Notes under the pieces: generated by a model
What the model saw: the letters and a program-made list of their open reading frames with translations, nothing else
The model's database searches: none
What the model was told of the DNA's origin: nothing
In this document: piece after piece, positions 17,458 through 48,124 of the stretch
Layout of the letters: each line of letters opens with the position of its first letter
How positions within the stretch are numbered: the first letter of the stretch is position 1
Translations under genes and position numbers: made by a program
From: a virus
DNA length: 50,895 nt
Direction: 5' to 3' (one strand)
IMG/VR virus record: IMGVR_UViG_3300035670_000304
Coordinates: 1 to 50,895 of that record

Positions 17458-19392
<1,935 letters not shown>

Positions 19393-46432: not shown

Positions 46433-46855
46433 ATGGAATTACTAAATTCACACCCAATTAAAAAATCCGATTTAGGTTTTCACGGTAACCTATTTGGTGG
46501 CAAACTTTTAGCATGGATAGACGCTTCAGCAGCAGGCTACGCAATGCAACTATGTGATACACCTCGTATGGTAACAGTTTCAATTGACCAATGTAATTTT
46601 GAAAGACCGGCTCGTGAAGGTCAATTGCTTAAAATTTATGGTTGGCCTAAAGAAATTGGAAATAGCTCTATAAACCTATATATGGAAGCTAGAGCCCATA
46701 ACGTTTATACAGGCAATCAAGCTGTTGTTTTAAAAACACATATTACATTTGTTCATATAGATGAAGAAGGACATTCTATACCATTAGGTGAAAAAGCAAG
46801 AAGTAGGGTAAAAAATCTTTTAGTTGAAAAATCTAAAGGAGAACTTGGAAAATAG
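46433..46855 (+). CDS. Hotdog-fold acyl-CoA thioesterase (YciA-like)
   Basis: 140 aa from ATG 46433; longer in-frame starts overlap the previous gene. HGNLFGGKLLAWIDASAAGYAMQLC carries the family's G-x-x-x-G-G-x-x-L-x-x-x-D/N active-site helix (Asp in place of the usual), then VDQCNFERPAREGQLLKIYGW, and the C-terminal strand TGNQAVVLKTHITFVHIDEEGHSIPLG. YciA-type enzymes hydrolyse long-chain acyl-CoA. It is an uncommon cargo for a phage; a role in membrane lipid supply or in modifying host fatty acids is conceivable. Confidence 0.75.
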   Translation: MELLNSHPIKKSDLGFHGNLFGGKLLAWIDASAAGYAMQLCDTPRMVTVSIDQCNFERPAREGQLLKIYGWPKEIGNSSINLYMEARAHNVYTGNQAVVLKTHITFVHIDEEGHSIPLGEKARSRVKNLLVEKSKGELGK

Positions 46856-46875
46856 AATATCTTTTCGTATATTAA
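46844..46875 (+). promoter_or_regulatory. Bacteroidota-type -33/-7 promoter
   Basis: CTTG at 46844-46847, 20 bases, TATATTAA at 46868-46875, 9 bases before ATG 46885. The -33 element lies within the last codons of the thioesterase gene. Confidence 0.65.
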
Positions 46876-46884
46876 AATAAAAAA

Positions 46885-46992
46885 ATGAGTAAAACATCAA
46901 GTAAACAAAAATTAGAAGTCTTACACAGTTGGATTTCATGGGTGTCAAAACAAAAAGGATATCCAAAAAGCAAACCTAAAACCAAAGTATAA
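46885..46992 (+). CDS. Very small basic protein
   Basis: 35 aa (MSKTSSKQKLEVLHSWISWV then SKQKGYPKSKPKTKV), with a clear promoter just upstream and an A-rich start context. Its stop overlaps the TATAAATA motif at 46988. Function unknown. Confidence 0.5.
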   Translation: MSKTSSKQKLEVLHSWISWVSKQKGYPKSKPKTKV

Positions 46993-46995
46993 ATA
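46988..46995 (+). promoter_or_regulatory. T4-late-like promoter TATAAATA before RNA locus
   Basis: A perfect TATAAATA at the end of the small gene, just upstream of the structured RNA region. If used, transcription would start near 47002 and run into the RNA locus at late times. Confidence 0.5.
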
Positions 46996-47074
46996 AGTAG
47001 ATGACCATGAAATGAAACCAAACAAACTAAAAGCGCCCACAGTGGTACATGGATCAGGCGCTTTATCTACTGGA

Positions 47075-47147
47075 AGTCAGGTGTACTTAAATGGTAAAGT
47101 ACCTAACGCTTAATTAGGAAATGCAGGTTCGAATCCTGTCCTGGCTA
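47075..47147 (+). tRNA. tRNA-like element, anticodon loop CGCTTAA (possible tRNA-Lys CTT)
   Basis: A full cloverleaf can be drawn: acceptor AGTCAGG/CCTGGCT (one G-T pair), D arm ACTT-AAATGGTA-AAGT, anticodon stem CCTAA/TTAGG with loop CGCTTAA, a 4-base variable region, T arm GCAGG-TTCGAAT-CCTGT, discriminator A. The T loop is canonical and the D loop has the expected GG. The loop has G where U33 is almost universal, and three bases join acceptor and D arm instead of two. No CCA is encoded. It may be a degenerate tRNA-Lys, or a tRNA mimic within the larger RNA. Confidence 0.6.
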
Positions 47148-47672
47148 CAGCAGTTACTTGACGTCCTATAGTACAGTAACAACCATTGGCATGTGGGGCA
47201 TTGCATGAATGGGGGCGCAAGGTAAGAGAAACTTGCAACGGTGGAGTGCCGAAAACATTAGAAACGCTCGTATGGGTGATCATGCGTTAGATGACAAATC
47301 TCCACTTTTTAAACACATAAACTCAGGTACCCATACAGCGGTGAGATGGGCTAAGTTAGATACAATTCCTCGGAGCTGGGAGTAGAATGCCTGAGAGTGT
47401 GTTTTTAAATATGTATAGAAAACACCCCACCAACATGAAAATGTTGGGACCATCTAGTGATACTGTTGCTAGATCCTCCCCTGTAGATAGTATCTACAGG
47501 TCAAGTACCAGACAGCATGCCGTAAGATCTGCTCACTATATCTGGTCTTTTTGGATATTGGGAAATTGGATTGCTGTAATACCTGTCCGGCCAGACACAC
47601 TTACTCAACCATATAACCAACTATCGCCCTCTAACAAGTACTAAGGACGCTTGGAAAACTGTTAGAGGGGAC

Positions 47673-47687
47673 AATGTAGGAGTTCTT
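47673..47687 (+). repeat. Left arm of 15-bp inverted repeat
   Basis: AATGTAGGAGTTCTT is the perfect reverse complement of AAGAACTCCTACATT at 48139-48153. The two arms enclose only the gene at 47711-48124. They could pair in RNA as a closing helix, or be the ends of an inserted segment. Confidence 0.85.
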
Positions 47688-47710
47688 TGACATTTTAAAA
47701 ATTAGAAAAC

Positions 47711-48124
47711 ATGGAAATAACATCATTTGTTTTAGGTATGCTTACGATTGTAGCAGCAATTATGATAACCGCTATTGTTGTAGGTATGGTTAAAATTAAT
47801 CAATTAAAAAACAAAACAGAAAATCTAACACAATTGTGTGCAGCAATTGAAAGTGATTTAAGACATGAAATCACAAATGTATATGATAGTATGAACCGTG
47901 AAGATGAAGGTATACGACGTATTATTGAAGATACAAATCGTGATATCACATTGGTTGAACGAACCATTATGCAACGTATTGACAAAGTCGATGAAGAACA
48001 TAACAAGCATGAAGATGATATTCATCGTCAAATTGATCAAACTAAATCTTATATCGATTCTCGAATTGATAAGGTAATAGTAAAAGGAACCTTAGATGGT
48101 TCTAAACAAGTAATAAAAGGATAA
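47711..48124 (+). CDS. Membrane-anchored coiled-coil protein
   Basis: 137 aa. One N-terminal membrane helix (SFVLGMLTIVAAIMITAIVVGMV, residues 5-27), then a long heptad-rich coiled coil (INQLKNKTENLTQLCAAIESDL and onward through RIDKVDEEHNKHEDDIHRQIDQTKSYIDSRIDKVI). Anchored with most of the protein on one side of the membrane. Size and shape resemble phage spanin- or lysis-inhibition-like or membrane-organising proteins, but no match can be claimed. It sits between the two arms of the 15-bp inverted repeat. Confidence 0.7.
   Translation: MEITSFVLGMLTIVAAIMITAIVVGMVKINQLKNKTENLTQLCAAIESDLRHEITNVYDSMNREDEGIRRIIEDTNRDITLVERTIMQRIDKVDEEHNKHEDDIHRQIDQTKSYIDSRIDKVIVKGTLDGSKQVIKG

Follow-up and report, generated by a model that had tools for sequence, protein, structure and literature searches.

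A noncoding region of separate structured RNAs beside tRNA-type elements in a phage genome

The window, which is the whole stretch of DNA analysed (50,895 nt; a 50.9-kb IMG/VR virus record), encodes a family-B DNA polymerase, a clamp loader, a thymidylate synthase, a chaperonin and a protein with a Fib_succ_major domain, and the host of the phage is likely a Bacteroidota-type bacterium. The phage-encoded chaperonin (17746-19392) belongs to the Cpn60/TCP-1 family. The array region (46997-47670) is flanked by a 35-aa ORF (46885-46992) and a 137-aa ORF (47711-48124). Nowhere else in the window are two long ORFs so far apart, in agreement with the earlier note, which had described a gene-free stretch. 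The GC content of 46997-47670 was approximately 44% vs. approximately 31%, with values of 0.42-0.46 in the region and roughly 0.25-0.35 across most of the flanks. The features of the locus are as follows.

46885-46992, plus strand: 35-aa ORF (MSKTSSKQKLEVLHSWISWVSKQKG...), directly 5' of the array (ORF listing)
46997-47070, plus strand: 5' hairpin, outer stem GTAGAT...ATCTAC, inner stem AAAGCGCC/GGCGCTTT (sequence, homologue in locus L038)
47075-47147, plus strand: tRNA-like, called tRNA-Lys(ctt) (Rfam, ARAGORN)
47148-47305, plus strand: RNA module A (~158 nt), four hairpin domains, closing stem 47240-47246 x 47300-47306 (covariation)
47311-47404, plus strand: RNA module B (~95 nt), outer 8-bp and second 8-bp stems, two inner helices (covariation)
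47430-47670, plus strand: RNA module C (~240 nt), GNRA hairpin, further hairpins, core and 3' hairpin (covariation)
47477-47664, plus strand: conserved core of module C
47626-47670, plus strand: 3' hairpin of module C
47673-47710, plus strand: conserved leader (GTAGGAGTTCTTTGACAT...) of the 137-aa ORF 47711-48124 (blastn)

The short internal ORFs of the region (e.g., 47387-47644) were considered as coding and rejected, because the homologues carry indels that are not multiples of three and show covariation between paired bases; codon-type covariation, which had been named beforehand as evidence against an RNA, was not what the homologues showed. With blastn, the leader at 47673-47710 was matched directly 5' of the same gene in L002, L003, L004, L005, L006 and L008. 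A protein partner was also sought, and no universal neighbour was found, the commonest ORF cluster being present in 25 of 234 loci.

At the 5' side, the sequence TATAAATA at 46988-46995 had been taken as a promoter cue. This octamer was counted 20 times vs. 15 expected and is thus not enriched. As a T4-late-type promoter it was rejected: it overlaps the TAA stop (46990-46992) of the 35-aa ORF, and in L038, whose 5' hairpin is the closest homologue, it is missing 5' of that hairpin. A similar short ORF (MSKVSAKQRVEQLQGWITFVK...) was read by eye directly 5' of the arrays in L003 and L005. The homologue of the 5' hairpin (L038 14225-14141) also stands directly before a near-identical tRNA-like, and in L038 these two occur alone and are followed by a terminator-like hairpin. 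A second candidate pseudoknot, TGACCATG (47002-47009) with CATGGATCA (47048-47056), is possible within the 5' hairpin, which is known from two sequences, both identical at the candidate strands.

The earlier note had read this locus as one large ornate RNA of approximately 700 nt beside a tRNA. That a structured noncoding RNA lies next to a tRNA in a phage was supported by covariation and by the tRNA match; the single large RNA gave way to separate modules. The stretch 46997-47700 folded only weakly better than its shuffles (z -1.69), and 1 of the 20 shuffles equalled or surpassed it. The paired segments that had been noticed correspond to covariation-supported helices in modules A, B and C, and the covariation score of each module was reached by 0 of 500 shuffles, in a test that ignores relatedness; slid controls, which account for relatedness, scored far lower, with the caveat that each structure was built from the alignment on which it was scored.

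The related loci were found via the 137-aa protein, and the RNA of the window occurs there in pieces, which argues for modules instead of one RNA. In relatives, tRNAs, tRNA-likes and ORFs separate the modules, which are also found without one another. The order in L003 is tRNA-Glu, A, tRNA-like, B, tRNA-like, a further element, an ORF, C, tRNA-Thr and more tRNAs; between A and C there is a tRNA-Met in L002, and there are tRNA-type elements plus an ORF in L005. When whole records were searched with the models, C was found without A in G003, G005, G006, G007, G010, G012 and G014, most of which span 63-174 kb, and B was found in only 3 of 16 records; these absences are only suggestive, because the records are metagenomic and of uncertified completeness.

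A permissive Rfam search (cmscan, 46800-47800, E<=10) found no tmRNA, RNase P, group I intron or group II intron, as the earlier note had judged from the letters, and ARAGORN found no tmRNA in the window. The same search gave no match to GOLLD or ROOL, the large phage RNAs that had been offered as candidates, and both were also without a match in the related loci at the gathering score. The sole Rfam match in the region was the tRNA. The suggestion of a new class fared better, since A, B and C match no Rfam family.

Could A, B and C nevertheless fold together into one GOLLD- or ROOL-like RNA, maybe a cage, with the tRNAs of relatives as linker insertions? The modules are contiguous in the window and lie beside a tRNA, 47145-47700 folds better than its shuffles (z -2.48), and tRNAs are known in the linker of GOLLD (PMC12286853). 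However, ORFs as well as tRNAs separate the modules, C occurs without A and B while B occurs in many records, every module is closed or bounded by itself, the Rfam models of GOLLD and ROOL were not matched, and L038 holds the 5' hairpin and the tRNA-like alone. We regard this explanation as quite improbable; 46997-47670 is a real noncoding RNA region of separate structured RNAs, not one giant RNA.

The alignment of module A contained 10 sequences and 39 pairs, with 97.2% of the cells paired and 9 pairs with changes on both sides. Its covariation score was 0.267 vs. 0.152 for the shuffles, and the slid controls scored 0.03-0.10. A search with the 16-mer of the A junction gave 77 contigs, mostly by chance, from which the covariance model retained five new A loci, including two with the same score. 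Once five further loci had been added by covariance model, a kissing interaction of loops 1 and 2 (47163-47170 x 47192-47199) was seen, in line with the pseudoknot that had been thought likely. Its strands are complementary in different versions: GUCCUAUA:UGUGGGGC in the window, and UUCCGA:UCGGAA, GUCAAAU:AUUUGGC and ACUUGC:GCAAGU in L003, L311 and L077, respectively. The duplexes of own loops had a mean of -7.9 kcal/mol vs. -4.6 kcal/mol for mismatched loops (0 of 5000 permutations). The minimum-energy fold of A alone was no better than shuffles (z 0.0), and it differs from the covariation-supported structure, which includes a pseudoknot.

Module B is present in at least 119 viral contigs. 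Among the listed matches there were 105 copies, 82 of them distinct, with 96.6% of the cells paired, 411 cells with double changes, and helices supported by covariation at 17 of 23 pairs (82 distinct sequences). The score was 0.564 vs. 0.175 for the shuffles in this alignment, which was fitted to the model, and 0.493 vs. 0.199 in an unfitted alignment of 9 sequences. The GGG side of a candidate CCC/GGG pseudoknot in B is invariant. Two copies of B lie close together in one phage (L211 2587-2689 and 2761-2866), and L192 also has two copies.

For module C, the alignment of 15 sequences showed double changes at 33 of 48 pairs, and the score was 0.445 vs. 0.159 for the shuffles. The GNRA tetraloop hairpin that had been noticed is present (CCAACAT-GAAA-ATGTTGG, 47430-47447), and its stem is compensated in relatives (CCGTTAT-GAAA-ATAACGG in L002). 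Module E, a conserved hairpin of ~68 nt (GTACCTACC...GGTAGGTC), precedes C in relatives (L002 4641-4708, L003 3530-3598, L005 4578-4646 and others); it is absent in the window, where B occupies its place. The 3' hairpin of C is followed by a terminator-like T-run in many relatives, and just downstream there is either a tRNA (L003, L008, L004, L034, L006) or the 137-aa gene (L002, L005, L019), as would suit a cis-acting attenuator in which a structured leader and a terminator control the downstream tRNAs or gene. However, no T-run follows the hairpin in the window and the downstream gene varies, and we consider an attenuator rather unlikely.

The embedded tRNA-like fold that had been recognized at 47075-47147 was scored by Rfam as tRNA (36.3 bits) and called tRNA-Lys(ctt) by ARAGORN, and it forms a complete cloverleaf (acceptor, D, anticodon and T arms). 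In its anticodon loop (CGCTTAA), G (47108) replaces U33, as it does in L038. U33 is near-universal in tRNAs. Judging from this loop, the tRNA-like of the window is apparently non-decoding. An ordinary decoding tRNA-Lys(CUU) with an inert spacer as the remainder would explain why both programs call a tRNA and why the loop departs from the usual tRNA-Lys(CUU) loop at position 33 only. The replaced U33, shared with L038, and the strong compensatory change in the supposed spacers make this explanation very improbable.

By its acceptor and T arm, the tRNA-like of the window belongs to a phage-specific family of tRNA-like shells: the 5' acceptor strand AGTCAGG and the 3' end CAGGTTCGAATCCTGTCCTG(A/G)CTA are both present, the latter with a single variant base. 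The tRNA-Leu-type D arm of the family (GGCGGAATnGGTAGACGC) is not found in the window member, whose D arm is GTACTTAAATGGTAAAGTAC; for the family, this 5' D arm is an independent observation that the search did not set. The family was found via its 24-base 3' end, which is therefore constant by construction and occurs in at least 120 viral stretches. Among the listed matches, 133 of 154 such ends had a matching 5' AGTCAGG within 260 nt, giving 128 distinct shells with a median length of 102. Of these listed distinct shells, 114 fold with acceptor and T arms, and ARAGORN called only 29 as tRNA. The 126 cores of at least 20 nt among the listed matches fell into 111 clusters, 99 of them singletons, and the cores folded slightly better than shuffles (mean z -0.61).

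The sequence AGTCAGGTGGCGGAATnGGTAGACGC was found in only 3 contigs across 84,980 bacterial and archaeal genomes, and searches for the shell in isolated phages gave ordinary tRNA matches or none. Our literature search found no relevant publication on hypervariable or tRNA-like phage RNAs. Shell-type genes were seen in L014 (2786-3444), L041, L047, L069, L097, L104 and ~100 further loci, with several copies per phage in some. Some variants carry a second insertion within the D loop (L097, L122, L053, L091), and others contain an internal T-arm-like hairpin (L014, L060).

We tentatively speculated, at well below even confidence, that these phages carry a diversifying RNA system of tRNA-Leu-like shells with hypervariable cores beside A, B and C, in which the shells are scaffolds for effector or decoy RNAs. 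In these shells, the acceptor arm and the T arm (5' AGTCAGGTGGCGGAATnGGTAGACGC, 3' CAGGTTCGAATCCTGTCCTGACTA) are near-constant, and the anticodon and variable region, and sometimes the D loop, would be swapped for a hypervariable core. The shells would then be scaffolds for the processing and stability of a rapidly changing repertoire, and possibly also handles for its recombination, and the tRNA-like of the window would be a short member.

Module A starts 0 nt after the discriminator base of a tRNA or tRNA-like in 15 of 15 distinct copies, ten by alignment and then L077, L308, L311, L338 and L282; the first ten copies and L077 were not chosen for this abutment, but four of the five later copies were found via a junction pattern including TACAG, so the abutment is partly by construction there. 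In L308, where the upstream tRNA-like escaped the script, the abutment was judged by eye. The tRNA 5' of A varies among phages (Glu, Met, Leu, others and tRNA-likes), which indicates that the position is kept and not the identity of the tRNA. The next tRNA-type element usually lies 1-7 nt past the end of A; the window, where B follows, is an exception. A tRNA-type element was within 12 nt of B in 55 of 75 copies, compared with 10 of 595 positions taken at random from these loci.

Other RNAs were also seen in such arrays. Module G, a further conserved element of ~120 nt, starts 0 nt after the end of a tRNA-type element (L002 4509-4630, L013 707-818, L014 4120-4231, L075 and L031). In L013 and L014 it ends 0 nt before the next tRNA-type element, as a second tRNA-punctuated RNA. 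tmRNA genes were observed within phage tRNA arrays at L097 5724-6218 and L077 4975-5349.

In this study, we believe that the region is probably a tRNA-punctuated array that is cut by tRNA-processing enzymes into separate stable RNAs. A single transcript, entered by transcription from upstream, would most likely carry the 5' hairpin, the tRNA-like, A, B and C, and host RNase P and tRNA 3'-end nucleases would cut it at the tRNA-type elements. Cuts at the tRNA ends would free A, and in relatives also B, with exact ends as a stable RNA acting in trans; C would be freed by tRNA processing or end at its terminator-like 3' hairpin. Because the window has no tRNA between A and B, these two may stay joined or be cut otherwise, and C likewise follows B there without tRNA punctuation to explain cutting. 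Processing, stability and action in trans are, like co-transcription, the most likely course, and action in trans is suggested by the structures and the absence of a fixed neighbouring gene. The company of tRNAs and tRNA-likes would point to the translation or tRNA machinery as the target. The likeliest role, a guess which we hold with low confidence, is that the freed RNAs and the tRNA-like act on tRNA or translation during infection, or decoy factors such as tRNA-cleaving defences.

Structured RNAs of phage tRNA arrays are an already known kind. The tRNA cluster of phage T4 holds the small stable RNAs C and D, of unassigned function. They resemble the present RNAs in being small and in lying within a tRNA cluster of a phage. 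Among 50,697 phage records, the region, A and C had no match beyond tRNAs. The freshwater-1 RNA (RF02979), a small structured RNA observed in the tRNA/tRNA-like arrays of two related loci (L004 1435-1496, L014 2478-2540), is a different family and is not in the window.

GOLLD is phage-borne and is one RNA, often of more than 800 nt, that forms a cage and sometimes has tRNAs in its linker (PMC12286853). It is similar to the RNAs described here in its phage context, its structure, its place near tRNAs and its likewise unassigned function, but the RNAs here are separate, of 95-240 nt, and have no Rfam match. ROOL, a single RNA of ~660 nt from phages and prophages, is often near tRNA islands and contains pseudoknots (PMC12286853); the neighbouring tRNAs and the pseudoknot are shared, whereas a single RNA and an Rfam match are not. 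Phage tRNAs with mutated anticodon loops may evade tRNA-cleaving nucleases and have been proposed to be still functional (PMC10264068). The window tRNA-like is similarly a phage tRNA gene whose anticodon loop is altered; in contrast, the U33 position is lost here, and in relatives the entire anticodon domain is replaced.

As far as Rfam 15 and the searched collections go, at least three RNA families (A, B and C) are new. They add three structured RNA families with strong covariation, set in a tRNA-punctuated array, and the freshwater-1 orphan family gains a phage context from its place in related arrays. The punctuation model predicts exact RNA ends, and the tRNA-like family with constant ends and hypervariable cores bears on the purpose of phage tRNA arrays.
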